From: an uncultured Pelagibacteraceae bacterium | Lineage (GTDB): Bacteria > Pseudomonadota > Alphaproteobacteria > Pelagibacterales > Pelagibacteraceae | Reading direction: 5' to 3' | Assembly (NCBI GenBank): GCA_902590395.1 | Contig: CACIWQ010000004.1 | Location: 5,001 to 69,000 of the forward strand | Length of the DNA: 64,000 nucleotides | Part shown: positions 3,178-42,177 of the stretch, in pieces | How positions within the stretch are numbered: the stretch's first letter is position 1 | How the letters are laid out: every line of letters starts with the position of its first letter | The notes under the pieces: generated by a model | The model's database searches: none | What the model saw: the letters and a program-made list of their open reading frames with translations, nothing else | Told to the model about the DNA's origin: nothing | Program-made: the position numbers and the translations under genes

Positions 3178-4187
3178 TTGTCATTAAAAACGTTTTTTTT
3201 AATTGGGTTTCCATAACTAATATTTATAGGAGATTTTTTATTTAGTAATTTTTCATAATAGATAGGAGGCAGACCATAACCTGGCCTAATTCTTCTCACG
3301 TTTTTCTTGGTAAATTTTTCTCCTTTTCTAATATTTTTTGATGCAAAAATTGAACGTCTAAAAACTTTGCTTTTATTCTCAGATTTATTTCTATAAAAAT
3401 ATTTTTTACCCATCAGTTTATAAACTTCATTTATTTTAGATCTAAATTTTTTAATTTCTTTACCTTTTAACGAAAAAGCTATATCGATTCCTTTTTTCTG
3501 ATTATCAAGAGCTATGTGTTTTTCAATTATTTCTGCTCCAGCCGCAACAGCAGCGACCGCAACCTTATCATCTTTTGAATGATCAGAAAGACCAATTCTA
3601 CATTTAAATCTTTCTTTTAATATTTTTATATTATTTAAATTGAAATCTTCGTTACTAGATGGATAATTACTAACACAGTATAATAACGTAATATCTTTGG
3701 CCCCGTATTTTTTGGCTATTTTAACGGTTCTATCTATATCGTGAAGACTTGCCATTCCAGTAGAAATAATCATTGGCTTTTTTGTTTTAGCAATTTTTTT
3801 AATTAAAGGAATGTCGGTCATTTCAAATGAAGCAACTTTATATATTGGGCATTTTAATTTTTCTAAAAAATCTACCGCAGTTTCATCGAATGGAGTGCTA
3901 AATATTTTTATCTTAATTTTTTTTGCATATCGAAAAAGTTTTTTATGCCAAGCTAAAGGCGTTTTTGCTTTATTGTACAAATCCCACAAATTATAACCCT
4001 TCCACAGACCGTGTTTTATTTTAAAATATTTTTTGTTTGATCTTAAAGTCATAGTATCTGCAGTGTAGGTTTGCAATTTTACGGCGTCCGCTCCATTAAT
4101 CTTTGCGCATTTAATCAATTTAATGGCTTTCTTTAAGCTTCCGTTATGGTTTGCTGATATTTCTGCTACTAAAAGGGGTTTTTGCAT
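3174..4187 (-). CDS. pseI: NeuB-family nonulosonate synthase, PseI-like
   Basis: The 337-residue protein has an N-terminal NeuB TIM barrel (about residues 5-245) and a C-terminal SAF/antifreeze-like domain (about 275-335). It condenses phosphoenolpyruvate with a 6-carbon amino sugar to make a 9-carbon sialic-acid-like sugar. 'AEISANHNGSL', 'DAVKLQTYTADTMT' and 'KTPLAWHKKLF' resemble pseudaminic acid synthase (PseI) more than NeuB proper. It is the first gene of a two-gene minus-strand operon with the PseC-like aminotransferase. Its start lies 53 bases from operator site 2, so it is a likely regulon member. PseI versus LegI cannot be settled by eye. Confidence 0.75.
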   Translation of the reverse strand: MQKPLLVAEISANHNGSLKKAIKLIKCAKINGADAVKLQTYTADTMTLRSNKKYFKIKHGLWKGYNLWDLYNKAKTPLAWHKKLFRYAKKIKIKIFSTPFDETAVDFLEKLKCPIYKVASFEMTDIPLIKKIAKTKKPMIISTGMASLHDIDRTVKIAKKYGAKDITLLYCVSNYPSSNEDFNLNNIKILKERFKCRIGLSDHSKDDKVAVAAVAAGAEIIEKHIALDNQKKGIDIAFSLKGKEIKKFRSKINEVYKLMGKKYFYRNKSENKSKVFRRSIFASKNIRKGEKFTKKNVRRIRPGYGLPPIYYEKLLNKKSPINISYGNPIKKNVFNDK

Positions 4188-4321: not shown

Positions 4322-4963
4322 ATGGAACTAAAAATTAGAAATGCTCGATTAAAGGATACTAGATTTATATACAATCTTAGGAACGACATTATTTCCAGAA
4401 AACATTCTTTAAATAAAAAAAAGATAAAATATAAAGACCATTTTTTTTGGTTGAAAAAAAAAATAAATAAAAAAAGAGATAAAATTTTCATAATTTGCAA
4501 CAAAACAGCAAACAAAAATATTGCTTATGTAAGATTCGACAAAATGGATTTATTTACGAGAGTATCAATAGCTATAGACAAAAAGTTTAGAGGAAGGGGT
4601 TTTTCCAAAAACATTTTAAGTATGGCAGAAAACCAATTAAATAAAGTTTCAATTTTGTTTGCGGAAGTAAACAAAAAAAATATAGCATCTTATAAATTGT
4701 TTGAAAAAAATAATTACGTTCTTTTAAATAAGAAAAAAAATTTTTTCCAATTTATTAAAATATTAAACAAAGACCATCAGAATAAAATTTTTATGGAGAC
4801 CATCGACAGAATCCAAAATACTAGAAAAAAGAACAACGTTAACTGGATGGATATTTTGAGAATTGCTTTCACAAATTCACCCAAGGCAACATCTATAATT
4901 TTTAAAAGAATAACATCTTGTGACAATGAAATTAACAATTTATCAAAAAAATTATCAAAATAA
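4322..4963 (+). CDS. GNAT acetyltransferase with C-terminal extension
   Basis: Residues 1-150 form a GNAT fold: 'IRNARLKDTRFIYNLRND' at the N-terminus and the acetyl-CoA loop 'DKKFRGRGFSKNIL' near residue 95. These resemble PseH-like sugar N-acetyltransferases. A roughly 55-residue tail follows, containing 'NNVNWMDILRIAF' and ending in a predicted helix; I do not recognise it as a standard domain. The gene leads a tight operon (3-4 base gaps) into PEP mutase, phosphonopyruvate decarboxylase and an alcohol dehydrogenase, and shares operator site 2 with the pseI-like gene. It may acetylate an amino sugar (nonulosonate precursor) or an aminophosphonate; context does not decide. Confidence 0.65.
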   Translation: MELKIRNARLKDTRFIYNLRNDIISRKHSLNKKKIKYKDHFFWLKKKINKKRDKIFIICNKTANKNIAYVRFDKMDLFTRVSIAIDKKFRGRGFSKNILSMAENQLNKVSILFAEVNKKNIASYKLFEKNNYVLLNKKKNFFQFIKILNKDHQNKIFMETIDRIQNTRKKNNVNWMDILRIAFTNSPKATSIIFKRITSCDNEINNLSKKLSK

Positions 4964-4966
4964 TAA

Positions 4967-6265
4967 ATGAAAAAAAATAGAAAAAAAGTTTACGTAGGTT
5001 TATCCGCAGATATATTACATAATGGTCACATAAATATTTTAAAAGTTGCCAATAAACTTGGCGACGTAACTGTGGGTTTGTTAACCGATACAGCTATTTC
5101 AGAATATAAAAAATTCCCTCATTTAAACTACAAACAAAGATTGACAGTACTCAAAAGTGTAAAATATATTAAAAAAATTATTCCGCAAGAAACTCTAGAT
5201 TATTCAAAAAATTTAATAAAATTAAAACCAGATTTTCTAGTTCATGGTGATGATTGGAAAAAAGGAATCCAAAAATTAACAAGAACAAAAGCAATAGCTT
5301 GTCTTAAAAAATGGAGAGGTAAATTAATTGAACCTAAATATACTAAAAATATTTCATCATCCTTAATCAAAAAAAAATTATCTGATTTAGGAACTACGCC
5401 GGATGTTAGACGAGCTAAGCTAAAAAGATTAATTCATGCCAAAGATATAGTAAGAATTATAGAAACACATAGTGCCCTATCTGGTTTGATAATTGAGAAA
5501 TTAAATTATAATAAAAGAAATAAGTATATTGAATTTGACGGTTTTTGGTCATCAAGCTTAACTGATTCAGCCTTACGAGGAAAACCTGATAATCAATCAG
5601 TAGATTACTCAACAAGAATGTTAGGCTTAAATGAAATTTTTGAAGTAACAACTAAACCATTAATTTTTGATGCAGATAATGGAGGTAGAGTAGAGCATCT
5701 ACCTTATTTAGTTAAATCACTAGAAAGGATAGGTGTTTCAGCAATAGTTTTAGAAGATAAAATAGGTCTTAAAAGAAACTCTTTATTTCAAGACCAACAA
5801 AAAACAAAGCAGGATACAGTCAAAGGATTTTGTAAGAAAATTGAAATTTCAAAAAAATCTAAAGTAACAGATGATCTTATGATAGTTGCTAGAATCGAAA
5901 GTTTTATACTAGGAAAAACACTTAATGACGCTTTAAAAAGAGCAGAAGCTTATTCTAGAGCTGGTGCAGATGCGATTTTAATTCACAGTAAAGAAAAAAA
6001 TGCCAATCAAATATTTACATTTTCCAAAAAATTTTTGAAAAGCAAATATTACAAACCCCTAATAGCCGTTCCCTCTACATATTCAAAAACATATGAACGT
6101 GACTTAATAAACAACGGATTTAAGGTTGTTATTTATGCCAATCATCTTTTGAGAGCGTCTTACCCAGCAATGCTAGATGCTGCTAAAAAAATCTTAATAA
6201 AGCAAAGATCTTTTGAGGCCGAAAGAAAAATAAGCCCAATAAACAAAGTACTAAATCTTATTTAG
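4967..6265 (+). CDS. pepM: Cytidylyltransferase-PEP mutase fusion
   Basis: Two domains are fused in 432 residues. Residues 5-135 are a nucleotidyltransferase with the HxGH motif 'HNGH' near residue 18 and 'SSSLIKKKL' near the end of the domain. Residues 150-430 are phosphoenolpyruvate mutase of the isocitrate-lyase superfamily, with 'DADNGG' and the diagnostic EDK-X5-NS motif 'EDKIGLKRNS' at about residue 263. That motif separates true PEP mutases from lyase relatives. The mutase forms phosphonopyruvate, the first C-P bond step. Fusion with a CTP-transferring domain is known and implies that the final phosphonate is activated as a CMP derivative for transfer to a lipid or glycan. The next gene (ppd) starts 2 bases after the stop. 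Confidence 0.92.
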   Translation: MKKNRKKVYVGLSADILHNGHINILKVANKLGDVTVGLLTDTAISEYKKFPHLNYKQRLTVLKSVKYIKKIIPQETLDYSKNLIKLKPDFLVHGDDWKKGIQKLTRTKAIACLKKWRGKLIEPKYTKNISSSLIKKKLSDLGTTPDVRRAKLKRLIHAKDIVRIIETHSALSGLIIEKLNYNKRNKYIEFDGFWSSSLTDSALRGKPDNQSVDYSTRMLGLNEIFEVTTKPLIFDADNGGRVEHLPYLVKSLERIGVSAIVLEDKIGLKRNSLFQDQQKTKQDTVKGFCKKIEISKKSKVTDDLMIVARIESFILGKTLNDALKRAEAYSRAGADAILIHSKEKNANQIFTFSKKFLKSKYYKPLIAVPSTYSKTYERDLINNGFKVVIYANHLLRASYPAMLDAAKKILIKQRSFEAERKISPINKVLNLI

Positions 6266-6267
6266 CT

Positions 6268-7371
6268 ATGATTTTTGTTAAAGAACTATTAGCTACATTG
6301 AAAAAAAATAAAGTTAATTTTTATGCCGGTGTTCCTGATAGTGTTTTAAAAAATTTATCAATTTATTTCAATAAGTTGGGTAAAAACAAACATATTATAG
6401 CGGCAAATGAGGGGTCAGCCGTTTCCCTAGGCATAGGTCATTATTTGGCTACAAAAAAAATTCCTTGTGTGTATTTACAAAACTCCGGTTTAGGAAATGC
6501 AATAAATCCAATAATTTCTATAGCACACAAAAAAGTTTACTCAATTCCATTGCTACTTATGATTGGGTGGAGGGGATCTTATGGTCAAAAAGATGAACCA
6601 CAGCACGAAGCAAAAGGTAAAATTACCCCAAGCCTGCTAAAATTACTGGGTATAAAATATTGTGTATTACAGAAAAAAAAGGATTTAACCAAGCTTAATA
6701 AATTAATAAAAGGGGCATATAAAACTAAAAAAATTGTTGCATGCTTAATTGAGAGAAATATTCTTAAAACAGATTTAAAAGAAAATATATCAAAAAAAAC
6801 TAAAAGTTCTTTTTTAAGAAAAGATTTTATAACTGAACTTTTAAAACAAATTTCAGTAAATTCAAAAATAATTTCTACAACAGGGTATACATCTAGAGAA
6901 CTAATGCAAATTAGAAAAGAAAAAAAATTATTCAAAGGACAGGATTTTTATATGGTAGGTGGTATGGGACATGCCTCAATGGTTAGTTTAGGATTTTCAA
7001 TGAATTCAAAAAAACAAACTATTTGTTTAGATGGAGACGGTTCAATCCTTATGCACCTAGGATCTCTAAGAACTTTAGGATATTTAGGTAATTCTAATTT
7101 AAAACACATATTACTAAATAATAATTCACACGAATCTGTAGGAGGCCAGCCTACTACAGCAAAAGGAATTGATTTTAAAAAATTATCAAAAACTTTTGGT
7201 TATAAAAAATATTATAAAATTTTAAAAAGAGAAAATGTTAAGCGAGAAATTAAAAATTTTCTTAAATCTGAAGGTCCAAGTTTTCTAGAGGTAATAATTT
7301 CTACCGGCACCTTAAAAAATTTATCCAGACCAAATAATTTAATTAAAATAAAAAAAAAATTTATGGAGTAA
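6268..7371 (+). CDS. ppd: Phosphonopyruvate decarboxylase
   Basis: This is a thiamine-diphosphate enzyme of 367 residues that decarboxylates phosphonopyruvate to phosphonoacetaldehyde and so drives the unfavourable PEP mutase step. N-terminal features are 'FYAGVPDSVLKNL' and the activating-Glu segment 'AANEGSAVSLGIGHYLA'. The ThDP/Mg motif starts at 'DGDGSILMHLGSL' near residue 255, followed by 'LNNNSHESVGGQPT', typical of Ppd and its sulfopyruvate decarboxylase relatives. Placement directly after pepM and before the Fe-ADH makes Ppd much the better call. Confidence 0.92.
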   Translation: MIFVKELLATLKKNKVNFYAGVPDSVLKNLSIYFNKLGKNKHIIAANEGSAVSLGIGHYLATKKIPCVYLQNSGLGNAINPIISIAHKKVYSIPLLLMIGWRGSYGQKDEPQHEAKGKITPSLLKLLGIKYCVLQKKKDLTKLNKLIKGAYKTKKIVACLIERNILKTDLKENISKKTKSSFLRKDFITELLKQISVNSKIISTTGYTSRELMQIRKEKKLFKGQDFYMVGGMGHASMVSLGFSMNSKKQTICLDGDGSILMHLGSLRTLGYLGNSNLKHILLNNNSHESVGGQPTTAKGIDFKKLSKTFGYKKYYKILKRENVKREIKNFLKSEGPSFLEVIISTGTLKNLSRPNNLIKIKKKFME

Positions 7372-7374
7372 AAT

Positions 7375-8490
7375 TTGAAAAATTTAACATTATCAACTGA
7401 AAATGATCTAGAAAATTTTATTAAAAGCAAAAAATATATGAAAGTTTTTGTTATATCAGGAAAGAAATCTTATACAATTTCTGGAGCAAGTCATCTTTTA
7501 AAAAAAATTTTAAAAAAAAAAATAGTAAAATTTTACTTAAAAAATTCCTCATATCCTGAAATTTCTGAACTTAAAAAAATAGTTTTTTCAATAAAAGATT
7601 TTTTGCCTGATTTGATATTAGCTGTCGGAGGAGGCTCGGTTATTGATTATGGAAAAATAGCAAATGTAGTGCAAAATATTACAAATTTAGAAAAACATAT
7701 AATTAATTCGAGCTTTAAATTTAAAAAAAAATATACCCAATTAGTTGCAATTCCAACAACTGCTGGCTCAGGCGCCGAAGTAACATCAAATGCTGTTATT
7801 TATATTGATAAAATAAAATATTCTTTAGAAAACAAATTAATAAAACCTGATCGTTTTTTTTTAATACCTGAGCTGGTAGTTAACTCTTCAAAAAAAATAA
7901 AAGCGGCAGCGGGTTTTGATGCTATTGCTCAAGCAGTTGAGTCCCTTATTTCAAAAAAATCAAATTATCAAAGTGCTTACTATGCAAAAAAATCTTTAAA
8001 TATTTCACTTAAGTATTATCTAGAGTATTTAAAAAGGCCAAATATTGAAAATTCAACGGCAATGTGTCTGGCTGCTAACTTAGCAGGTAAAGCAATCAAT
8101 ATTTCAAAAACTACAGCTCCTCATGCGGTCTCCTATCCTTTTGCATCTTTATATGGCTTAAGTCATGGACACGCTGTTTCTCTTACAATTGAGAAATTTC
8201 TTAAGTTTAATTACGTCAACCATAACTCCGCGAAATGCAATTTTGATTTACAATCAAGATATAAAAATATTTTCGAAATATTTAAAGTTAAAAATATTCT
8301 TGAATTGGAAAAATTATTTATAGATATGAAAAGTAAAGCTAATTTAATAGATGATTTCAAAAAGCTTAAAATTAATTTGAATACTCAATTAGATAAAATA
8401 ATCGATGGTGTAAATTTACAAAGATTAAGAAATAATCCTGTAGATTTGAACAAAAAGGACGTAAAAACAATATTGCTTGGATTTAATTAA
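7375..8490 (+). CDS. Iron-containing alcohol dehydrogenase, probable phosphonoacetaldehyde reductase
   Basis: A group III Fe-alcohol dehydrogenase of 371 residues. It has the NAD(P)-binding 'AVGGGSVIDYGK' near residue 85, 'IPTTAGSGAEVTSNAV' near 128, and metal-site histidines in 'APHAVSYPFASLYGLSHGHAVS'. After pepM and ppd, the known route for this family is reduction of phosphonoacetaldehyde to 2-hydroxyethylphosphonate (PhpC-type). The start is TTG, 3 bases after the ppd stop; no better in-frame ATG precedes the conserved region. A phosphonate-specific role is inferred from operon context. Confidence 0.8.
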   Translation: MKNLTLSTENDLENFIKSKKYMKVFVISGKKSYTISGASHLLKKILKKKIVKFYLKNSSYPEISELKKIVFSIKDFLPDLILAVGGGSVIDYGKIANVVQNITNLEKHIINSSFKFKKKYTQLVAIPTTAGSGAEVTSNAVIYIDKIKYSLENKLIKPDRFFLIPELVVNSSKKIKAAAGFDAIAQAVESLISKKSNYQSAYYAKKSLNISLKYYLEYLKRPNIENSTAMCLAANLAGKAINISKTTAPHAVSYPFASLYGLSHGHAVSLTIEKFLKFNYVNHNSAKCNFDLQSRYKNIFEIFKVKNILELEKLFIDMKSKANLIDDFKKLKINLNTQLDKIIDGVNLQRLRNNPVDLNKKDVKTILLGFN

Positions 8491-8520
8491 ATTGTTGCCT
8501 ATAGGGCTTTTAAATGCTAG

Positions 8521-8537
8521 TGTTCAAATATTGAACA
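8521..8537. promoter_or_regulatory. 17-bp operator palindrome, site 3 (autoregulatory)
   Basis: TGTTCAAATATTGAACA is an inverted repeat symmetric about one central base. It ends 12 bases before the ATG of the MarR-type regulator, a position expected for negative autoregulation. Read on the opposite strand, it is identical to site 5 at 42201. This placement is the main reason to assign the palindrome family to this regulator. Confidence 0.75.
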
Positions 8538-8549
8538 TTAAATAATAAT

Positions 8550-8876
8550 ATGGAAAACGATAAAGATAAAGACGGTTTTAATATATTAAGGAAGATACAT
8601 AAAAAACCTCACTACTCTCAAAGAGATATAGCTAATGATCTCGGTTTGAGTTTGGGAAAAATAAACTATTGTTTAAAAGAATTAAAGAAAAAGGGACTAA
8701 TCAAAATTAATAATTTTAAAAAAAATAAAAAAAAAATTAATTATATTTATTTACTTACACCTAAAGGCATAGCCTTTAAAACAAAAACTACAGTAAATTT
8801 TATGAAGTTAAAAATGAAAGAGTATGACGAGCTTAAAAAAGAAATAAAGACTGACAAAAAAAACTTATCAAATTAA
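8550..8876 (+). CDS. MarR-family EPS-associated transcriptional regulator
   Basis: A 108-residue winged-helix protein. 'HYSQRDIANDLGLSLGKINYCLKELKKKGLI' (about residues 21-51) is the helix-turn-helix, followed by a Lys-rich wing and 'YLLTPKGIAFKT', a typical MarR-type ending. It matches the short MarR-type regulators found in exopolysaccharide and LPS clusters. Its start lies 12 bases downstream of a perfect palindrome that recurs upstream of four other envelope operons here, so it is the probable local regulator. Whether it represses or activates, and its effector, are unknown. Confidence 0.8.
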   Translation: MENDKDKDGFNILRKIHKKPHYSQRDIANDLGLSLGKINYCLKELKKKGLIKINNFKKNKKKINYIYLLTPKGIAFKTKTTVNFMKLKMKEYDELKKEIKTDKKNLSN

Positions 8877-8905
8877 AAAACTTAGAAAATTAGTTTTCTT
8901 AAATT

Positions 8906-10645
8906 ATGCAAAAAATTTATAAAGCTTGGGGAATACTTTCATCAAGTGAAAGGAAAATATTTATATTTTTGGTTATAATGAAAATTATAGGCATGTGCTT
9001 AGAAGTATTTGGTATTGCACTTATTATTCCCTTAATTTCAATTATATTAAAAGAAGATACAGAATTTTTTAACATAGATTTTTTTGATTTTTTTGAATCA
9101 TTTGGCTTTGCAGGCCAGGACAATCTTACAACTTCAATAATTTTTTTTATAGTATTTGTTTATTTAATCAAAAATTTATTTTTAATGTTTTTGGCTTGGA
9201 CAGATTCTAAATTTGCTTATGGAGTTGCAGCAAGACTTTCTAGAGATCTTTTTAAAGGTTATATAAATCTGCCTTATAATTTTTATCTTAAAAGAAATAC
9301 ATCTAAGTTTGTTTATAACGCCACATCAGCAGTTGATTTATACAAATATGCCCTGACTCATTTAGCTACACTTGTATCAGAATTATTTATTTTAATTGGT
9401 TTATCTACTTTTTTAATAATTATAGAACCTTTCGGTTTTGTATGCGCTTCGTTACTAATCGGATTAATTTCTGTAATTTATTACAAGATTCACAAGAAAA
9501 AGGTTGCTGATTGGGGTGAAAAAACTCAATTTCACCAAAAATCGAGAATAAAAAATTTGATGCAAGGTTTCGGTGCTATTAAGGATATAATTATATTAGG
9601 TCTTCAAGATTTTTTTACAAAAATGTACGATATCCATAATATTGGGACCGCTAAAATGACTCAAAAAAATCACGTAATAAGTGCTTATCCAAAATACATC
9701 TTAGAAGTTTTTGGCGTTATAGGAATTTTGTCTTTACTTATGATACTTCAAGCTAAAACAGAAAATGTTGAAAATATAATTATCATACTTGGAGTTTTTG
9801 CAGCTGCATCATTTAGACTTATGCCTTCAGCAAATAGGATATTATACGCATTACAAGGATTTCGTTTTTCTATTGCAACGGTAGATAATTTAAGTAATGA
9901 ATTAAATTTATTTAATAAATATAATTTAAATAAAAAAAACAATATAAAATTAAACGATTTTAATAAACGTTTATCAAATTTTCAAAAATTTGAAATAAAT
10001 AATGTAAGTTACAAATATCCCGACACAGAAAAAAAAATTTTAACTAATATTTCTCTAACAATGAACAAAGGAGAAATACTAGGCATATCGGGAAAAACAG
10101 GATCAGGAAAGAGCACCTTGGTAGATATTATCACGGGCCTGTTAGAAGATTACGATGGTCAAATAACGATAGATAAAAAAACTTATGATAAAGTTCCAAT
10201 CTTTTGGCAAAGAAATATTGGTTACGTTCCGCAAAATATATATTTATTGGATGATTCTTTAAAAAAAAATATAGCACTTGGTATTGATGATAAAGATATA
10301 GACAATCTTAAAATAAACGAAATAATAAATTTATCTGAACTCAATACGCTTGTAGAAAGTTTACCTCAAGGATTAAATACAGAAGTAGGGGAAAGAGGCA
10401 CAAGATTATCAGGGGGAGAAAAACAAAGAATTGGAATTGCACGAGCGTTATACAATAATCCAAAAGTACTTATATTTGATGAAGCAACAAATGCTTTAGA
10501 TATTAAAACTGAGGAATCAATAATGTCGTCGATATGTAAAATAAAAAAAGAAAAAGCTATACTTTTTATTTCACATAAAAAAGTAACATTAAGTTTTTGT
10601 GATAGAGTAGTGGAGTTAAAAAATGGACTACTTCAAAATAATTAA
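8906..10645 (+). CDS. ABC transporter, fused permease-ATPase (PglK/MsbA-type flippase)
   Basis: This 579-residue protein has about six N-terminal membrane helices (residues 15-310) and a C-terminal ATPase. Walker A is 'GKTGSGKST' near residue 397, the signature 'LSGGEKQR', Walker B 'VLIFDEATNALD', and the H-loop 'LFISHK'. It is a homodimeric exporter half like PglK or MsbA, which flip lipid-linked oligosaccharides or lipid A. It follows the regulator by 29 bases and is probably in the same transcript under operator site 3. The cargo is presumably the glycan made by this cluster. Confidence 0.85.
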   Translation: MQKIYKAWGILSSSERKIFIFLVIMKIIGMCLEVFGIALIIPLISIILKEDTEFFNIDFFDFFESFGFAGQDNLTTSIIFFIVFVYLIKNLFLMFLAWTDSKFAYGVAARLSRDLFKGYINLPYNFYLKRNTSKFVYNATSAVDLYKYALTHLATLVSELFILIGLSTFLIIIEPFGFVCASLLIGLISVIYYKIHKKKVADWGEKTQFHQKSRIKNLMQGFGAIKDIIILGLQDFFTKMYDIHNIGTAKMTQKNHVISAYPKYILEVFGVIGILSLLMILQAKTENVENIIIILGVFAAASFRLMPSANRILYALQGFRFSIATVDNLSNELNLFNKYNLNKKNNIKLNDFNKRLSNFQKFEINNVSYKYPDTEKKILTNISLTMNKGEILGISGKTGSGKSTLVDIITGLLEDYDGQITIDKKTYDKVPIFWQRNIGYVPQNIYLLDDSLKKNIALGIDDKDIDNLKINEIINLSELNTLVESLPQGLNTEVGERGTRLSGGEKQRIGIARALYNNPKVLIFDEATNALDIKTEESIMSSICKIKKEKAILFISHKKVTLSFCDRVVELKNGLLQNN

Positions 10646-10646
10646 G

Positions 10647-11477
10647 TTATTTGATTTTTAAAACTAATTTTTCGATAAATTTTTTAAAGTACACTAAATA
10701 AAAACCACCCAAGAAAATCATAATTAATCTAAAAAGTATTAAATAGTATATAAAGTTTGAAAGAATAATTTTATCATAACCAATTTCTATTAAAATTATC
10801 AATCCGATGAAATCTACTGTTCTAGCTCTATCATCAAGGAAACTTTGAAAAAAATTTTTTAAAAAAATTAAAAAACCTGAAATTTCATTTTCTTTATTGC
10901 TAATTTTATTTTTTATATTTTTAGATTTTACAATGGATTTTTTATTTTTATAAAATTTATACATTAAGTGATGGTAAGTATAATCTTTTATATCAAGAGC
11001 TTTAGTTGTGATTATCAATATCATGCAATATACAAAATGAATTTCTTGTGTAGAATTATACAAATACATTCCTAAACCGATTAAAAAACTAAACGACCCT
11101 ACAAGTCCACCCCACGAATCTAAAACATCACCCAACTCAGAAGTTTGTTTTTTTAATCTTGCTAAGAGTCCATCACTCCAATCAAATATTCCTTTAAAAA
11201 AAAATACAATTACACCAGTTACAATCATAATTTTTGATTCTGAACTTAATAAAATACCACCGATGACTCCTGACAAGGCGTAAGACAAAGAAATCCAATT
11301 TGGTTTTATTGGAGTATGTTGTATAAAAAACACAAAAAGAGCAGAAAGTTCAATTATGATTCTCGACTTGAGCGCGTTATAAGGAGAATGTAACCAGTCA
11401 TCAATATCTGCATTAGCTTCCCTGGTCAGTTTTCTTTGGGTTTTATAGTGAGCTTTTCTAATATTAATATAATTCAT
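10647..11477 (-). CDS. CDP-alcohol phosphatidyltransferase-family protein, variant active site
   Basis: The 276-residue membrane protein carries most of the CDP-alcohol phosphotransferase signature: D99-x2-D102-G103-x2-A106-R107, then G116-x3-D120. The final catalytic Asp (expected at 124) is Gly ('GDVLDSWGG'). Hydrophobic helices flank the motif and continue to the C-terminus. Family members transfer a phospho-headgroup from a CDP-alcohol to a lipid or polyol. Here a CDP-activated phosphonate would be a natural donor, given pepM 4 kb away. Its start lies 47 bases from operator site 4. The missing Asp means it may be inactive or may use altered chemistry. Confidence 0.75.
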   Translation of the reverse strand: MNYINIRKAHYKTQRKLTREANADIDDWLHSPYNALKSRIIIELSALFVFFIQHTPIKPNWISLSYALSGVIGGILLSSESKIMIVTGVIVFFFKGIFDWSDGLLARLKKQTSELGDVLDSWGGLVGSFSFLIGLGMYLYNSTQEIHFVYCMILIITTKALDIKDYTYHHLMYKFYKNKKSIVKSKNIKNKISNKENEISGFLIFLKNFFQSFLDDRARTVDFIGLIILIEIGYDKIILSNFIYYLILFRLIMIFLGGFYLVYFKKFIEKLVLKIK

Positions 11478-11517
11478 TGCAAATGTTTTTTTAACTTTAA
11501 CTATTTTAATAAATCCC

Positions 11518-11563
11518 TTAGTATGTTCATTATTTGAACATTAAATGAACTATATAGATATAA
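11518..11563 (+). repeat. 46-bp promoter/operator block, copy B
   Basis: Second copy of the block at 4234-4279, with two mismatches. It contains operator site 4 and the same TATATAGATATAA -10-like element, and ends 36 bases before the TTG start of rfbG. The shared geometry suggests that the phosphonate operon and the CDP-hexose operon are driven by equivalent promoters. Confidence 0.7.
11524..11540. promoter_or_regulatory. 17-bp operator palindrome, site 4
   Basis: TGTTCATTATTTGAACA, identical to site 2, lies between the divergent CDP-alcohol phosphatidyltransferase-like gene (start 11477) and the rfbG operon (start 11600). Confidence 0.7.
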
Positions 11564-11599
11564 TAAAAAAATTCAATAATTTAGAAAAAGAAAAAAGCT

Positions 11600-12670
11600 T
11601 TGATAAAAACATTTAGGAATAAAAATGTTGTTGTAACTGGGCATACCGGATTTAAGGGATCATGGTTAGTGGCCTGGCTACACTTGTTGGGGGCAAATAT
11701 AATGGGCATATCACTAGATCCCACCTCTAAACCATCTCACTTTGAATCTTTAAAAATTTCAAAAAAAATAATTGATGTAAGACTAAATTTATTAAATTTA
11801 AAACAACTTAAGAAAAAAATTTCAAATTTTAAACCAGATTTCGTTTTTCATTTGGCAGCACAATCAATTGTAAGTAAATCTTATAAAGAACCCTTATTGA
11901 CCTGGCATACAAATTTAATTGGTACTTTAAATGTTTTGGAGGCTTTAAAAAGTTTAAATAAATTCTGCGTTGGCGTAATAATAACGAGCGATAAGTGCTA
12001 TAAAAATTTCGAAATTTCAAAAGGTTACAAAGAAACAGATATACTTGGTGGCGACGATCCCTATAGCGCATCAAAAGGAGCTGCTGAAATTGCAATTAAT
12101 TCATATATTAAATCTTTTTTATACAATAACAAAAAATTTAGAATCGCTAGCGCAAGAGCAGGAAATGTTATTGGCGGGGGAGACTGGAATTCAAGCAGAA
12201 TTATTCCCGATTGTATTAGAGCAGCAATAAAAAACGATACTGTAAAAATTCGCAATTTAAATGCAACCAGACCTTGGCAGCATGTAATAGAGTTAATTTA
12301 TGGATATCTTCTTTTAGCAAAAAAATTAAAAAATAATTCTAATATTCATGGAGAATCATTTAATTTTGGTCCACGCGAAAATTTAAATTATTCAGTTTTA
12401 GATGTTTTGAAAGAAATTAAAAAAAATTGGAAAAATTTTAAATGGAAAAAAATTAAATTTAAAAAAAATAAACTCAAAGAAGCTAAATTATTAAGTCTTA
12501 ATTGCAAAAAAGTTAATAAAATTTTAAAATGGAAACTATCTATGAATTTTTCTCAAACAATTAAAACTACAATAGAATGGTATAAAAATTACTACAATAA
12601 AAAAGAAAATGCTTTTTTAATTACATCTAAACAAATTAAAGAATATCAAAAAAAAATAGAAAAATTTTAA
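11600..12670 (+). CDS. rfbG: CDP-glucose 4,6-dehydratase
   Basis: A 356-residue extended short-chain dehydrogenase that converts CDP-D-glucose to CDP-4-keto-6-deoxyglucose. It has the NAD-binding 'VTGHTGFKGSWL' at residue 12, the RfbG-type 'SLDPTSKPSHFE', catalytic 'YSASKGAAE' near residue 155 and 'NVIGGGDW'. The start is TTG (TTGATAAAAACA); translation from it gives the conserved N-terminus and no ATG fits. RfbF, the enzyme making its substrate, is two genes downstream, so the pathway is coherent. Confidence 0.92.
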   Translation: MIKTFRNKNVVVTGHTGFKGSWLVAWLHLLGANIMGISLDPTSKPSHFESLKISKKIIDVRLNLLNLKQLKKKISNFKPDFVFHLAAQSIVSKSYKEPLLTWHTNLIGTLNVLEALKSLNKFCVGVIITSDKCYKNFEISKGYKETDILGGDDPYSASKGAAEIAINSYIKSFLYNNKKFRIASARAGNVIGGGDWNSSRIIPDCIRAAIKNDTVKIRNLNATRPWQHVIELIYGYLLLAKKLKNNSNIHGESFNFGPRENLNYSVLDVLKEIKKNWKNFKWKKIKFKKNKLKEAKLLSLNCKKVNKILKWKLSMNFSQTIKTTIEWYKNYYNKKENAFLITSKQIKEYQKKIEKF

Positions 12671-12683
12671 AAAATAGAAATAC

Positions 12684-13400
12684 ATGTTAAACGAAAAAAT
12701 TGCAGAAAAAAAAATAGATAATAACTTGGTATTAGCGGCTAATATTTTTTACAAACATAAAATAGATTATTGGTTTTGTCACGGAACACTTTTGGGTATT
12801 GTTAGGGACAAACAATTAATTGAGTGGGACCCAGACATTGACGTTGCTATTTGGGAAGAATCGGTTTCTAGAAGAAAAATCACAGAAATTATGACTATAA
12901 ATAATTTTAAACTTAAGACAGATTCTTTTTTTATTGGAGATAATTTATTAAGCTTTACTAAAGAAGGTGGAAGAAAAGTAGATATTCATTTCTATAAAAA
13001 AATGTATGATAAAATTAAGAATCAACATATGGCTGTTGTTTACATGTCATATTTACCGAAAAATATTTTTTTTAAAGTTTTGGATGTTCTTTCTATTGCT
13101 AAAACATATAGAGGAAAATATAAACTTTTTGTAAAAATATTTGGTATTTTTCAATCTTTCTTCTTATTTTTTAAAACAAAGCTAGTAAAAAAAAATATTT
13201 TTTACAAATCAGCTGGTTATTGTGAACCAATGGAACTTTTAAATGAATTCAAAGAAATTGAATTTTTTAATACTAAAGTAATTATACCTTCTAAATCCGA
13301 AGAGTGTTTGGAGTATATATATGGACAAGATTGGAAGATTCCAAAAAAAGACTTTTATTATGCGGAAGAGCGAAAAAATAGCCCAACAACAATAACTTGA
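12684..13400 (+). CDS. LicD/fukutin-family nucleotidyltransferase-like transferase
   Basis: A 238-residue protein with the LicD-type core 'WFCHGTLLGIVRDK' followed by 'WDPDIDVAIWEE' (about residues 31-57) and 'GRKVDIHFY'. The Asp pair in 'DPDIDVAI' is the metal site of this superfamily. LicD proteins transfer phosphocholine, and fukutin-like relatives ribitol phosphate, from a CDP donor onto a sugar. In this cluster, which encodes cytidylyltransferases fused to or co-regulated with phosphonate enzymes, a plausible donor is a CMP-phosphonate. It sits between rfbG and rfbF in a tight operon. The true donor and acceptor are not evident from sequence. Confidence 0.7.
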   Translation: MLNEKIAEKKIDNNLVLAANIFYKHKIDYWFCHGTLLGIVRDKQLIEWDPDIDVAIWEESVSRRKITEIMTINNFKLKTDSFFIGDNLLSFTKEGGRKVDIHFYKKMYDKIKNQHMAVVYMSYLPKNIFFKVLDVLSIAKTYRGKYKLFVKIFGIFQSFFLFFKTKLVKKNIFYKSAGYCEPMELLNEFKEIEFFNTKVIIPSKSEECLEYIYGQDWKIPKKDFYYAEERKNSPTTIT

Positions 13401-13401
13401 C

Positions 13402-14115
13402 ATGCAAAATAAATATAAAAATATGAAAGTTGTTATACTAGCAGGTGGTTTTGGCACCAGACTATCAGAATATACAAAAACAATTCCAAAACCCATGATT
13501 AATGTTGGTGGCAAGCCAATACTTTTACATATTATGAAAATGTATGCCAAATATGGCTTTAAAGACTTTTACATTGCATTGGGATACAAGGGAAAAATAA
13601 TCAGAAATTTTTTTAAGAAAAGTATTTATGACTGGAATATTAATCTTATAGATACTGGAAAAAACACCATGACTGGCGGAAGATTAAAAAAATTAAAAAA
13701 ATATATTGGGAAAGAAACTTTTTTTATGACCTACGGAGATGGATTGTCAAATATAAACTTAAAAAAATTATTGAAATTTCATAAGAAAAAGAAAAAGTTG
13801 GTAACGTTAACCGCTGTAAGACCACCAGCTAGATTTGGAGCTCTTAAACTTAAAGGTCAGAACGTAAGTTATTTTAAAGAAAAATCAAGGGTCGACGAAG
13901 GATGGATAAACGGTGGTTTTTTTGTCATGGAGCCTGAATTTTTAAAGTTTATTAAAAGTGATAGCACTTATCTTGAACGTGAACCTTTGGAAAAAGCAAC
14001 TAAAAAAAAGGAATTAGTTGCATATAGACATGAAGGATTTTGGCAGTGCATGGACACAAAAAGAGATATGGATAAGTTAAATCAAATTATAAAAAAAAAG
14101 AAAATTAAATTTTGA
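13402..14115 (+). CDS. rfbF: Glucose-1-phosphate cytidylyltransferase
   Basis: Makes CDP-glucose from CTP and glucose-1-phosphate, the substrate of RfbG upstream. 'MKVVILAGGFGTRLSEYTK' is the nucleotidyltransferase signature, followed by 'KPMINVGGKPILLHIMKMYA' and 'TYGDGLSNI' for the metal-binding Asp. ATG 13402 directly follows the licD-like stop. ATG 13423 is an alternative that begins exactly at the conserved MKVVILAGG, giving about 230 residues. The 3' end overlaps the next gene by 4 bases. Confidence 0.92.
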   Translation: MQNKYKNMKVVILAGGFGTRLSEYTKTIPKPMINVGGKPILLHIMKMYAKYGFKDFYIALGYKGKIIRNFFKKSIYDWNINLIDTGKNTMTGGRLKKLKKYIGKETFFMTYGDGLSNINLKKLLKFHKKKKKLVTLTAVRPPARFGALKLKGQNVSYFKEKSRVDEGWINGGFFVMEPEFLKFIKSDSTYLEREPLEKATKKKELVAYRHEGFWQCMDTKRDMDKLNQIIKKKKIKF

Positions 14116-15026
14116 ATCCAAAAAAAGAAATATTGATTGTAGGTGGTACTGGTTTTATTGGCTATCATTTAGCTAAAAAAGCTCTAAAAAAAGGGTGGAC
14201 AGTCACTAGCATATCATCAAAGAAACCAAAAAAAATAAGATACTTACCAAAAATTAAATATATAATTTGCGATATTACAAAAAAACAACTTTTAAAAAAA
14301 AAAATTAATAAAAATTTTGACTATGTGGTAAATCTCGGTGGTTATGTAGATCATAAGAATAAAAGTAAAACTTTCAAAAGTCATTATATAGGTTGTAAAA
14401 ATTTAGTACAAATCTTTTTAGAAAGACCACCAAAAAATTTTATTCAAATGGGTAGTAGTGTAGAATATGGAAACTTAAAGTCACCTCAAAGGGAAAATTT
14501 TAAATTTAATACGAAATCAATTAAGTCGACATATGGAAAAGCTAAATTATTATCATCTAAATATCTTACAGATTTAAACAAAAAAAAACTTTTCCCATCT
14601 ACAATTTTACGTTTGTATTTAGCCTATGGTCCCAGGCAAGACATAAATCGATTTCTTCCAATTATAATAGCTGGGTGTTTAAAAAATAAAAAATTTCCAT
14701 GCTCTAATGGAAATCAGTTAAGAGACTTTGTACACGTAGATGATGTTGTAGAAGCGATAATCAAATCATTAAATAGCAAAAAAGGGGTAGGGCAAATAAT
14801 TAATATAGGATCAGGAAAACCAAAAAAAATTAAAAATATAATTGAAAATATAAGAAAAATTTTAATGAGAGGGAGACCTCAATATGGAAAAATTAAATTA
14901 AGAAGAGATGAAATTTTAAAACTATACCCAAGCATAGCAAAAGCTAAGCAAAAGATTAACTGGAGGCCAAAAATTTCTTTTGAACAAGGCCTTAAATCAA
15001 CAATTAAATTTTATGCAAACCAATAA
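14112..15026 (+). CDS. NAD-dependent epimerase/dehydratase (CDP-sugar reductase/epimerase-like)
   Basis: A 304-residue extended SDR with 'IVGGTGFIGYHLAKKAL' at the N-terminus, catalytic 'STYGKAKLLSSKYL' (YxxxK) near residue 140 and 'RDFVHVDDVVEAI'. It probably acts on CDP-4-keto-6-deoxyhexose, reducing or epimerising it like RfbJ or paratose synthase. The TTG start overlaps the rfbF stop by 4 bases. No RfbH-type CDP-4-keto-6-deoxyglucose 3-dehydrase is visible in the cluster, so a 3-deoxy product is not indicated; a plain CDP-6-deoxyhexose is more likely. Confidence 0.75.
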   Translation: MNPKKEILIVGGTGFIGYHLAKKALKKGWTVTSISSKKPKKIRYLPKIKYIICDITKKQLLKKKINKNFDYVVNLGGYVDHKNKSKTFKSHYIGCKNLVQIFLERPPKNFIQMGSSVEYGNLKSPQRENFKFNTKSIKSTYGKAKLLSSKYLTDLNKKKLFPSTILRLYLAYGPRQDINRFLPIIIAGCLKNKKFPCSNGNQLRDFVHVDDVVEAIIKSLNSKKGVGQIINIGSGKPKKIKNIIENIRKILMRGRPQYGKIKLRRDEILKLYPSIAKAKQKINWRPKISFEQGLKSTIKFYANQ

Positions 15027-39851: not shown

Positions 39852-40799
39852 ATGACGCTTTCAGATCAACAAAAGAAAGAAATATTAGAACAACAAAATC
39901 AAAAAAATACCACAAAAAGAGTCACATCACCTGAACTTGAAAAAATTCTTTACGAAGCTTTACCAGTTCTCGATCATGGATTTGTGAGAGTAGTAGATTA
40001 TATGGGTGATGATAGTTCTATTGTCCAGGCCGCTAGGGTTTCCTATGGAAAAGGTACAAAAAAAGTTTCAACAGATAGTGGTTTGATAAAATATTTAATG
40101 AGACATAGGCATAGCACTCCATTTGAAATGTGTGAAATAAAATTTCATGTCAAATTACCAATTTTTGTTGCAAGACAATGGATTAGGCACAGAACAGCAA
40201 ATGTTAATGAATATTCTGCCAGATATTCGATTTTGGACAAAGAATTTTATCTGCCTTCCAAAGAAAACCTTGCGGCGCAGTCTACAAGCAACAGACAGGG
40301 TAGAGGAGATTTAATAAATGGAAAACAAGCAGATAATATTTTAAAAATTTTGAAAAAAGATGCAGAACAAACTTATGCAGACTATGAGATTTTGTTAAAT
40401 GAAAAATATGACGGAAGCACAATCGATAAAAATAATAAAGGTTTGGCTAGAGAATTAGCTAGAATGAATTTGACTTTAAATACTTATACTCAATGGTATT
40501 GGAAAACAGATTTATTAAATTTATTAAATTTTTTATCTTTAAGAGCCGACAGCCATGCCCAATATGAAATAAGGGCATATGCGGATGTTATGATTGATTC
40601 TTTAAAAAGATGGGTGCCTATAACTTTTGATGCTTTTATGGATTATAGGATAGGAGGAATGGAATTATCAGCAAAAGGCAAAGCGGTAATCGTTAAAATG
40701 ATGAAAGGACAAAATTGTGATTTTAAATCCTCCAATCTTTCAAAAAGAGAATGGAATGAACTGATGGAGTCTTTCGGTTTTAAAGAAAAGATTTGCTAA
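39852..40799 (+). CDS. thyX: FAD-dependent thymidylate synthase
   Basis: 315 residues. It has the ThyX motif RHRxxSxxxxSxR-like '[14 protein letters not shown]' near residue 112, preceded by '[20 protein letters not shown]'. It makes dTMP from dUMP using methylene-tetrahydrofolate and FADH2, replacing ThyA. Its end overlaps the convergent cytidylyltransferase gene by 4 bases. Confidence 0.95.
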
Positions 40800-41194
40800 A
40801 TTAATTTAAAACCACTTCGTGATTTTTTTCTCAATAAACTAGCGCTAACATTTTTTGTTCTCTTTAAAATTTTTACATACTTTTTATCAAGTGAATTTTT
40901 ATTATCCGAGCCGTGTATCATTAGATCAAATTTGTGTTTTTTAAAAAATTTATTGTCTATATTGAAGTTACATTTTATTACGCCAGAGACATATTTAATT
41001 GATGATATAATTTCCTTTCTACTTTTAAAGTTTAACAAAGGGCCATATTTTTTATATTTTTTGATTTCCTTATCTGAGGTAAGCCCAACGTAAACTTTTC
41101 CGTGTGCAGAAGCTTTTTTAAGCAATCTAATATGACCGTGATGTAGAATAGATACAGACATATCTACTAATATTTTTTTTTTCTTTTTTTTCAT
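40796..41194 (-). CDS. Stand-alone cytidylyltransferase (TagD/LicC-like)
   Basis: 132 residues of a single CTP-transferase domain: '[21 protein letters not shown]' with HxGH, '[20 protein letters not shown]', '[10 protein letters not shown]' and the C-terminal '[12 protein letters not shown]'. It resembles the N-terminal domain of the pepM fusion in order and spacing. It is coupled (TAATG) to the class V aminotransferase and lies downstream of operator site 5. By analogy with AEP cytidylyltransferases paired with AEP transaminase, it may form CMP-2-aminoethylphosphonate; that is inference. Confidence 0.8.
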
Positions 41195-42177
41195 TATTTA
41201 ATAGAAATTTTTTTTAATATTTCAGCTTTTGCGGCTTTACCCAAATGCGCTTCACCTAAATGACAAACCACGCTACCCGGTAAAGTATTTCTAGCTTTAT
41301 AAAAAATTACTCTTTTATCTTTCGCTTTTAATTTGCAAGTCGTATACGTACAAAGCAAGGGTTGATTTTTTTTGCCAAATATTAATTTACTATCAAAAAT
41401 TTTCATAAATTTATTTTTATTAATCCTAACAGAGTAAGCAAAATTATTATGGTTTGCCAAAATTTTTTCTAATGATTGAATGGAGTGATAAGGTCCTGTC
41501 ATTCTTTTTTGGATATGCGAGTTTATATCTAAATTAAAAGAAGAAACCTCATTTTCAGGATTATGGTTATATGAAACAAAACAAGCTCCAGTTAATCCAA
41601 ATAATCCCTTACAAGAACTAAAAGAAATAACATCAGCTAATTCATGCGACGATTCTAATCCTATTGAAGCAGTTGCATCTAAAGCCAATTTAGCTTTCAC
41701 TTTTTTTGAAAATTTTTTAAGTTCTACAATTGGTATTTTTAAACCGCAACTAGTTTCAGTAGGACATGCCCAGACCCAATCAAATTTCCCAGAAAAATTC
41801 TCTAAATCTTTCCAATGTACTTTTGAGATTTTGCGTATTTTTTTTAAATTTTTTTTAGCATTTAAACACATTTTAAAAAGTCTATCGGAGTAATAACCTG
41901 TAGATACAATTAAAATTTTGCCGTATAAGAAATTTAAGGAAACAACTTCTAAAGCAAAGCTGCCAGAACCCTGCATGCGTACCACTTTTTTTTGTCCACT
42001 AATTTTTTTTAATTTTGAAAGAACTTTTTCCTCGACTTTTATGTACTCTGAATCATTTCGACCAAAACAAGGACCAAGACCTGATAAATTTTCTGCCACT
42101 AGACTGGAGGGTCCAGCAGTAAACAGAAACTTTTTACTGTTTTTATTACTTACAAAATCTTTTAATTTTTTTTCCAC
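41194..42177 (-). CDS. Class V aminotransferase, 2-aminoethylphosphonate transaminase-like
   Basis: 327 residues of fold-type I PLP enzyme: 'FLFTAGPSSLVAENLSGLGP' start, 'GSGSFALEVVSLNFL', 'LALDATASIGLESSHELAD' (PLP Asp) and Schiff-base Lys in 'ISFSSCKGLFGLTGACF' near residue 198. Layout matches the PhnW/serine-glyoxylate/AEP transaminase group. With phosphonoacetaldehyde made by Ppd, it could form 2-aminoethylphosphonate. The start is GTG at 42177, 23 bases downstream of operator site 5. It forms a two-gene unit with the cytidylyltransferase, inserted between thyX and mrp. Substrate is inferred from regulation and partner. Confidence 0.72.
   Translation of the reverse strand: MEKKLKDFVSNKNSKKFLFTAGPSSLVAENLSGLGPCFGRNDSEYIKVEEKVLSKLKKISGQKKVVRMQGSGSFALEVVSLNFLYGKILIVSTGYYSDRLFKMCLNAKKNLKKIRKISKVHWKDLENFSGKFDWVWACPTETSCGLKIPIVELKKFSKKVKAKLALDATASIGLESSHELADVISFSSCKGLFGLTGACFVSYNHNPENEVSSFNLDINSHIQKRMTGPYHSIQSLEKILANHNNFAYSVRINKNKFMKIFDSKLIFGKKNQPLLCTYTTCKLKAKDKRVIFYKARNTLPGSVVCHLGEAHLGKAAKAEILKKISIK

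Follow-up and report, generated by a model that had tools for sequence, protein, structure and literature searches.

Does the locus described here attach phosphonates to the envelope of a SAR11 cell, or do its phosphonate and glycan genes only happen to lie side by side? Ocean phosphonate feeds marine methane production, and SAR11 possibly supplies most of the phosphonate of the sunlit ocean, according to an estimate (PMC8931226). The window, i.e. the whole analyzed stretch of 64,000 nt, comes from the hypervariable region of a SAR11 (Pelagibacteraceae) genome, belonging to an abundant ocean bacterium; this genome is 73% complete, and a single fused PepM was detected in it. We consider it fairly probable that the locus encodes SAR11's own form of the Pnt (phosphonyl-tailoring) pathway, directed at the cell envelope; CTP-activated phosphonates are probably attached to surface sugars of SAR11. 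The following features bear on this question:

1981-4187, strand opposite to the pepM operon: PseC and PseI, both above cut-off
4322-4963, plus strand: GNAT acetyltransferase-like protein (PF00583, weak PseH similarity), heading the pepM operon with a 3-nt gap to pepM
4967-6265, plus strand: PEP mutase (PepM) with N-terminal Fom1-like cytidylyltransferase domain (PF01467 and PF13714, TIGR02320)
6268-7371, plus strand: phosphonopyruvate decarboxylase (Ppd; TIGR03297)
7375-8490, plus strand: iron-containing alcohol dehydrogenase (Fe-ADH; PF00465)
8550-8876, plus strand: MarR-family EPS-associated regulator (MarR_EPS; TIGR04176, above cut-off)
8906-10645, plus strand: PglK/MsbA-like ABC exporter (PF00005; best NCBIfam match PglK, E = 2.6e-83, under cut-off)
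10647-11477, minus strand: CDP-alcohol phosphotransferase family protein (CDP-OHP; PF01066), D4 replaced by G
11600-12670, plus strand: CDP-glucose 4,6-dehydratase (rfbG; TIGR02622, 446 bits, cut-off 278)
12684-13400, plus strand: LicD/FKRP-like phosphotransferase (PF04991; FKRP by profile and Foldseek)
13402-14115, plus strand: glucose-1-phosphate cytidylyltransferase-like protein (rfbF; TIGR02623, 297 bits, just below the cut-off of 300)
14112-15026, plus strand: SDR/epimerase-type sugar-nucleotide enzyme (PF01370), conserved beside rfbF and licD
15013-15924, plus strand: family 2 glycosyltransferase (GT2; PF00535), ending the rfbG-licD-rfbF operon
19046-20443, minus strand: Wzy_C O-antigen ligase/oligosaccharyltransferase-like protein (PF04932)
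35832-36566, plus strand: PhyH-type 2OG dioxygenase, peripheral (PF05721)
40796-41194, minus strand: stand-alone (solo) cytidylyltransferase, type B (PF01467; HHGH and VSA (ISS-type) motifs)
41194-42177, minus strand: class V aminotransferase, similar to AEP transaminase (PhnW/AepZ; PDB profile and NCBIfam matches)

All genes named in a previous sequence-only reading of this DNA were found and are consistent with their families. That reading had joined them in one regulon. We observed that 4322-8490 is a tight operon with intergenic gaps of 2-3 nt, followed by the MarR and ABC genes, the CDP-alcohol transferase gene on the minus strand and an operon at 11600-15924, and that the aminotransferase/cytidylyltransferase pair is 28 kb distant from the other parts. 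As both strands, at least three transcription units and this distance are involved, the locus is not one operon. An ABC flippase and nonulosonate genes had also been included in the system; the ABC protein is indeed PglK-like, whereas PseC and PseI are encoded on the opposite strand, outside the interval 4322-13400, and 129 of 160 family genomes contain NeuB-type genes, so that we treated the pseudaminate/nonulosonate genes as background. NeuB was rejected as a partner gene of the module because it is near-ubiquitous, and was for this reason taken as a control for variable-region capture. A homologue of the GNAT-like gene was not found among the compared loci. The GT2 gene has an alternative TTG start at 14980.

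In the proposed pathway PepM would rearrange PEP to phosphonopyruvate and Ppd would decarboxylate the latter to phosphonoacetaldehyde, two steps for which family membership and the closest solved structures give good support. PepM scores 356.9 bits against the TIGR02320 cut-off of 319.6, its mutase motif EDKIGLKRNS is an intact EDKX5NS and the nearest structures of its C-domain form the 1pym group (PEP mutase), while Ppd reaches 391 bits (TIGR03297 cut-off 312.5). The earlier assignments of a PEP mutase with this motif and of Ppd as the pulling step were thereby borne out. Reduction by Fe-ADH and transamination by the 41194 gene had been assigned as well; families and nearest relatives agree with this, but Fe-ADH, the aminotransferase and the solo cytidylyltransferase score under the equivalog cut-offs and we therefore infer their substrates. 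Fe-ADH, which matches the PsrA-type family TIGR03405 with E = 5.7e-34 (under cut-off) and comes after pepM-ppd in most loci of PepM clade I (see below), is probably a phosphonoacetaldehyde reductase yielding 2-hydroxyethylphosphonate (HEP). In an alternative branch, the remote aminotransferase may form 2-aminoethylphosphonate (AEP). Its best PDB profile match is 7e7g, an AEP-pyruvate transaminase (E = 2.7e-17), and its best NCBIfam match, TIGR03301 (E = 1e-16), gives 61 bits against a cut-off of 361, so we class it only as an AEP transaminase relative; it stands beside ppd or pepM in seven genomes (G073, G099, G235, G266, G327, G346 and G432).

Activation by CTP would follow. The best PDB match of the PepM N-domain is the Fom1 cytidylyltransferase (CyTase) structure 5x3d (E = 3.5e-45) and its motifs HNGH, HGDDWK and ISSS are intact, from which we infer that it converts CTP and HEP to CMP-HEP. 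Fom1, the HEP cytidylyltransferase of fosfomycin biosynthesis (Cho 2017, as cited in PMC6697681), has the identical domain order of PF01467 CyTase and PEP mutase, and no other solved protein is closer to the N-domain; however, CMP-HEP leads to a small molecule in the fosfomycin pathway, whereas in the window pepM has glycan and transferase genes as neighbours. Some related loci contain a B12 radical-SAM protein, which is absent from the window cassette. The solo type B enzyme is a candidate AEP cytidylyltransferase that would provide CMP-AEP; its relatives adjoin the aminotransferase gene, pepM or ppd in other genomes. We observed type B enzymes at most 3 genes from the aminotransferase in 9 loci and near Fe-ADH in none, and type A enzymes near Fe-ADH in 4 loci and near the aminotransferase in none. 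This distribution points to HEP- and AEP-specific solo types as a new candidate distinction. The PhyH-type dioxygenase is possibly a phosphonate hydroxylase: its best NCBIfam match is methylphosphonate hydroxylase (NF052437, E = 9.6e-18, under cut-off), and relatives adjoin pepM in several loci.

For the transfer step the candidate is LicD, which, FKRP-like and acting on a CMP/CDP donor, would move the phosphonyl group from the CMP-phosphonate onto a glycan. The PF04991 match covers residues 24-63 only; wider LicD/FKRP kinship rests on the FKRP profile and on Foldseek matches of the LicD model, including FKRP with CMP and FKRP with CDP-ribitol (6kam). The WDxDID metal motif (D-x-D) is invariant. 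The acceptor glycan would carry a 6-deoxyhexose, made by rfbF, rfbG and the SDR enzyme (a candidate CDP-4-keto-6-deoxyglucose reductase) and placed by GT2. The position of licD within an rfbG-rfbF operon had been called unusual, but licD lies beside rfbF/rfbG/SDR in 9 of the 12 SAR11 licD loci. The PglK-like protein, whose gene adjoins licD, a cytidylyltransferase or CDP-OHP in several loci, is a candidate flippase that would export the lipid-linked glycan, and the cluster of the Wzy_C gene is seen again near licD/pepM loci in three genomes (G028, G266 and G432).

The sequence-only reading had proposed co-occurrence of the pepM fusion, licD-like genes and 10647 orthologs as a check, and we analyzed it in 397 family genomes (Pelagibacteraceae). 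Fused PepM is present in 48 of the 397, but in 10 of the 12 LicD genomes (p = 1.5e-8) and 14 of the 17 CDP-OHP genomes (p = 1.2e-11), and CDP-OHP is present in 9 of the 12 LicD genomes (p = 8e-12). Both transferases are thus associated with PepM beyond chance, which confirms the earlier observation. When NeuB-positive genomes only were considered as a control for variable-region capture, the associations with PepM persisted for LicD (p = 3e-4) and CDP-OHP (p = 8e-9), and a mere island effect was rejected as the source of the licD-pepM link. In two loci (L161 and L162) CDP-OHP, ppd, solo cytidylyltransferase, Fe-ADH, pepM, licD, SDR, rfbF and rfbG are collinear in the same direction, and a third (L163) has a comparable gene set. 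Phosphonate genes occur at most 4 genes from LicD in 7 of 12 loci and from CDP-OHP in 11 of 16.

The fused PepM proteins themselves fall into two clades in the tree, each with different partner genes: LicD or CDP-OHP is present in the genome for 10 of 13 clade II proteins versus 6 of 37 in clade I. As the PepM of the window belongs to clade I (the Fe-ADH clade) and it is clade II with which LicD and CDP-OHP usually go together, this speaks against a Pnt-like pathway and for an alternative that we regard as doubtful, namely that a clade I HEP cassette serving another acceptor and a CDP-deoxyhexose O-antigen operon, whose LicD moves phosphoalditol, are independent neighbours co-located via the hypervariable region. 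Both are indeed separate transcription units, with LicD in the window 5 genes from the closest phosphonate gene; PepM is absent in two LicD genomes, LicD of G017 accompanies rfbF/rfbG without PepM, and the FKRP substrate is CDP-ribitol (6kam). However, independent neighbours would have to be reconciled with the association surviving the variable-region control and with the position of licD, which in the genomes G028, G279, G309 and G432 immediately adjoins one of the genes for PepM, Ppd and a solo cytidylyltransferase and in G104 and G266 lies two genes from one of these.

The second transferase raises a question of its own. CDP-OHP belongs to its family by sequence (PF01066, 48.2 bits, cut-off 22; top profile match AF2299, E = 4.7e-10) and by fold (top match 4o6m, AF2299, E = 1.8e-3, probability 1.00), and it shares the D1xxD2G1xxA...G2xxxD3 motif with AF2299, PgsA1 and CHPT1. 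Unlike these, the entire SAR11 family deviates from the complete motif D1xxD2G1xxAR...G2xxxD3xxxD4: all 16 members have G, A or S at the D4 position, and we regard the protein as homologous but non-canonical. Of the two CDP-dependent transferase types claimed earlier, both thus have the expected family matches, but the 10647 protein lacks D4. The two other family members of the same genome, used as controls, retain it. A profile of a 6-member CDP-OHP alignment, searched against genome contigs, matched six Pelagibacteraceae single-cell genomes as well as five distant canonical proteins in which D4 is present. D4 is the presumed catalytic base of CDP-alcohol phosphotransferases (PMC6506517), and in xlCHPT1 alanine in place of any of the four aspartates leaves less than 20% activity (PMC10182977), which counts against a role of CDP-OHP in transfer. 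The loss of this residue across a whole family, a new finding, is a mechanistic puzzle.

Because the canonical base is missing, we propose altered catalysis for CDP-OHP, which would perform a second, membrane-side CMP-phosphonate step. Tentatively, the D4-less family may be a new phosphonate-specific membrane transferase using CMP-HEP or CMP-AEP, with D222 perhaps as the base or with an acceptor needing none, that acts one after the other with LicD in the assembly of phosphonoglycans in SAR11, which is itself a likely major source of ocean phosphonate. That CDP-OHP is instead a catalytically dead scaffold or regulator, leaving phosphonate transfer to LicD only, we consider unlikely: it would fit the family-wide replacement of D4 and the variable motif R, but D1, D2, G1, A, G2, D3 and the C-terminal D222 are invariant, and this favours a conserved active site. 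A phosphonolipid route, in which CDP-OHP would load HEP or AEP onto a lipid such as diacylglycerol in a Kennedy-like manner and LicD would use a different donor, is very unlikely: although the link of CDP-OHP to PepM is no weaker than that of LicD, its gene immediately adjoins ppd or pepM in six genomes (G028, G279, G309, G320, G429 and G432) and its eukaryotic homologues use CDP-choline to put phosphocholine onto diacylglycerol (PMC10182977), the protein lacks D4, glycan genes are conserved companions and most LicD genomes carry both transferases.

The Pnt-like pathway can be compared with known systems. Rice et al. (2019) proposed CMP-phosphonate tailoring with LicD-like genes as neighbours (PMC6697681), and the SAR11 locus resembles it in the PEP mutase-nucleotidyltransferase fusion, the expected CMP-phosphonate donor, nearby LicD-like genes and the proposed surface glycan target; rfbF/G, GT2 and ABC genes complete the neighbourhood of a Pnt cluster. 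However, characterised PntCs are LicC-like (PF12804 type) whereas the SAR11 enzymes are of the PF01467 type, fused and solo, and SAR11 adds the CDP-alcohol transferase family, CDP-deoxyhexose genes and two PepM clades. Acker et al. (2022) described glycan-associated pepM in SAR11 (PMC8931226); their SAR11/Prochlorococcus islands, from the same organism group and largely from single-cell genomes, hold pepM beside glycan assembly and O-oligosaccharyltransferase genes, for which a surface glycoprotein role was proposed, but the main text mentions neither LicD nor cytidylyltransferases and leaves the transfer step unresolved. The Lic phosphocholine pathway (licC/licD) likewise combines cytidylyl activation with a LicD-family transferase, though on phosphocholine, whereas a phosphonate is the expected donor in SAR11; no choline kinase or uptake genes were seen in the cassette. 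The earlier idea of a new glycan-phosphonylation route is therefore to be narrowed: CMP-phosphonate with LicD and glycan-associated pepM in SAR11 were already known, and the recurring module and the two PepM clades with different partners are new. Likewise, the pathway logic agrees with families, nearest structures and comparative genomics, while one regulon and a unique combination were not upheld. The recurrent pepM-linked pair of CMP/CDP-dependent transferases provides candidates for phosphonate transfer, a step that is testable in vitro. A viral scan gave one distant match for LicD and two fused PepM genes, the latter in large viral contigs.

The window is AT-rich and stems from a source genome of 0.93 Mb that is 73% complete. 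We infer that the host is a SAR11 bacterium and that the region belongs to a hypervariable glycan island of its genome. The following genes are central to our analysis:

4967..6265 (+), PEP mutase with a fused N-terminal cytidylyltransferase domain (PepM)
10647..11477 (-), CDP-alcohol phosphotransferase homologue (CDP-OHP)
12684..13400 (+), LicD/FKRP-like protein (LicD)
40796..41194 (-), solo cytidylyltransferase
41194..42177 (-), class V aminotransferase

The first operon comprises four genes with gaps of 2-3 nt, which encode a GNAT-type protein, the PEP mutase fused to a PF01467 domain, phosphonopyruvate decarboxylase (Ppd) and an iron alcohol dehydrogenase (Fe-ADH). Downstream lie a MarR_EPS regulator and then a PglK-like ABC exporter; the CDP-OHP homologue is encoded on the opposite strand, and a second operon holds rfbG, licD, rfbF, SDR and GT2. 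The gene identities named in the sequence-only reading were correct, but the analysis did not demonstrate the single regulon that it proposed, and the transaminase/cytidylyltransferase pair is located 28 kb off. We also observed PseC and PseI (pseudaminic acid, 1981-4187) and a LIC12162-family transferase (208-1977), all above cut-off; relatives of the latter recur in licD/CDP-OHP loci.

PepM and Ppd score above the curated equivalog cut-offs. The window PepM carries the mutase motif EDKIGLKRNS and the N-domain motifs HNGH, HGDDWK and ISSS, and the nearest solved structures are the Fom1 cytidylyltransferase 5x3d for the N-domain (E=3.5e-45) and a PEP mutase of the 1pym group for the C-domain. 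Conversion of HEP (2-hydroxyethylphosphonate) to CMP-HEP is the Fom1 activity as cited in PMC6697681. We hold with high confidence that the locus encodes C-P bond formation, decarboxylation and, as a class, cytidylyl activation, and with moderate confidence what the substrate of the activation is.

Gene sets for both HEP and AEP (2-aminoethylphosphonate) are present in the window. The 41194 gene encodes a divergent member of the class V aminotransferases; among solved structures the AEP-pyruvate transaminase 7e7g comes closest to it (E=2.7e-17), and its top NCBIfam models are PhnW/AepZ, every one below cut-off. Two types of solo cytidylyltransferase adjoin different enzymes: type B, to which the 40796 protein belongs, lies no more than three genes from the aminotransferase in 9 loci but beside Fe-ADH in none, while type A, which resembles the PepM N-domain more closely, was found beside Fe-ADH in 4 loci and beside the aminotransferase in none. 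This supports a pairing of the AEP route with type B and of the HEP route with the Fom1-like type. PhyH-type dioxygenases (window 35832-36566; L141:9667-10419, in a compared genome) also recur by pepM; methylphosphonate hydroxylase is their nearest NCBIfam model, and they possibly hydroxylate the phosphonate.

An 11-member LicD profile recovered FKRP, beyond the PF04991 match, and the LicD model (mean pLDDT 78.6) matches LnuA as well as FKRP, the latter with Mg, CMP and CDP-ribitol. As the WDxDID motif is moreover invariant in the family, LicD is probably a metal-dependent transferase with a CMP or CDP donor. Judging from the neighbour genes, the donor would be a CMP-phosphonate and the acceptor a glycan with a CDP-6-deoxyhexose-derived residue. 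We hold with moderate confidence that LicD acts as a phosphonyltransferase onto glycan. The LicD of genome G017 (L084:2241-3512) carries a fused N-terminal methyltransferase-like domain resembling a separate neighbour gene (c25) elsewhere.

The strangest element of the locus is CDP-OHP, which matches AF2299 by profile and by fold (model mean pLDDT 73.5). Its family motif reads D1xxD2G1xxA...G2xxxD3xxx followed by G, A or S, so that the fourth Asp (D4) is missing in all 16 members; D4 is retained in the genome's two other CDP-alcohol transferases, in SAR11 paralogues and in distant matches. D4 is the presumed catalytic base of PgsA1 (PMC6506517), and xlCHPT1 kept <20% activity when any one of the motif Asp residues was mutated (PMC10182977). 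The invariant residues outside the motif, including D222, argue for a candidate active site that is altered but working. In some loci the neighbours of CDP-OHP include a TauD dioxygenase and an NTP_transf_3 protein resembling LicC (L082:15705-17356 in G028; L149), which suggests that nucleotidyl activation may also take a third form.

Next to these features we analyzed 397 genomes of the family, counting LicD at E<1e-30, CDP-OHP at E<1e-10 and PepM if fused and full-length. PepM was present in 48 genomes, LicD in 12 and CDP-OHP in 17, and nine genomes contained all three. The association of these genes, which the sequence-only reading had proposed as a check on its phosphonate-decorated envelope, was found: PepM occurred in 10 of the 12 LicD genomes (p=1.5e-8) and in 14 of the 17 CDP-OHP genomes (p=1.2e-11), and LicD occurred with CDP-OHP (p=8e-12), by Fisher tests that assume independent genomes although the genomes are related. 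Because incomplete genomes often are without the island, we repeated the test in genomes marked by NeuB as a sign of a captured island (129 of 160 genomes), where the association persisted (LicD and PepM, p=3e-4; CDP-OHP and PepM, p=8e-9; LicD and CDP-OHP, p=3e-6).

Since the tests treat related genomes as independent, physical linkage outweighs these p-values. A phosphonate gene was observed at most four genes from LicD in 7 of 12 loci and from CDP-OHP in 11 of 16, and rfbF, rfbG or SDR at most three genes from LicD in 9 of 12. AG-920-I07 (L161) and AG-904-I05 (L162) show the single-strand order CDP-OHP, ppd, solo cytidylyltransferase, Fe-ADH, pepM, licD, SDR, rfbF, rfbG; AG-345-F21 (L163, the same locus as L141) shows ABC, licD, GT2, CDP-OHP, solo cytidylyltransferase, ppd, B12 radical-SAM, aminotransferase, PhyH, methyltransferase, pepM. 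As gene orders vary, one set has been assembled repeatedly rather than inherited as a single block. The B12-binding radical-SAM protein (L141:7166-8680; relatives in G017, G028, G346 and G441 loci) adjoins, in several SAR11 phosphonate loci, the pair of aminotransferase and cytidylyltransferase or another gene of the module; P-methyltransferases (NF038361, PhpK family) are among its top NCBIfam models, though below cut-off, and P-methylation in SAR11 would be unexpected, if true of this protein.

A tree of 50 PepM sequences splits into two groups of 37 (clade I) and 13 rows (clade II), with support 100/99 each. LicD or CDP-OHP is present for 10 of 13 clade II rows versus 6 of 37 in clade I (p=1.4e-4). 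The window PepM, the only fused one found in its 73% complete genome, falls in clade I, the pepM-ppd-FeADH type; here, therefore, a HEP cassette of the clade I kind stands alongside tailoring genes which in other genomes go with clade II.

Rice et al. 2019 (PMC6697681) had already established that phosphonates are activated with CMP, that about 60% of Ppm enzymes carry PF01467 or PF12804 fusions, and that genes resembling LicD occur close to ppm; Acker et al. 2022 (PMC8931226) reported SAR11 pepM, in 18% of tropical cells, within glycan islands and proposed phosphonylated glycoproteins. The locus is thus a variation on a known theme. In the literature searched we found no mention of the recurring set of LicD and D4-less CDP-OHP, nor of the PepM clade split or the solo-cytidylyltransferase pairing.

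Very large ORFs of 1975 and 1740 aa adjoin pepM in G034 and G060 (L071:11107-17034 and L076:3823-9045, respectively). Two large viral contigs from IMG/VR (138 and 145 kb; L198:6602-9269, L199:6605-9281) also carry a fused PepM, 50-52% identical to SAR11 PepM, which follows two half-ORFs resembling Ppd and a short ORF resembling Fe-ADH; this may be a phosphonate cassette encoded by phage.
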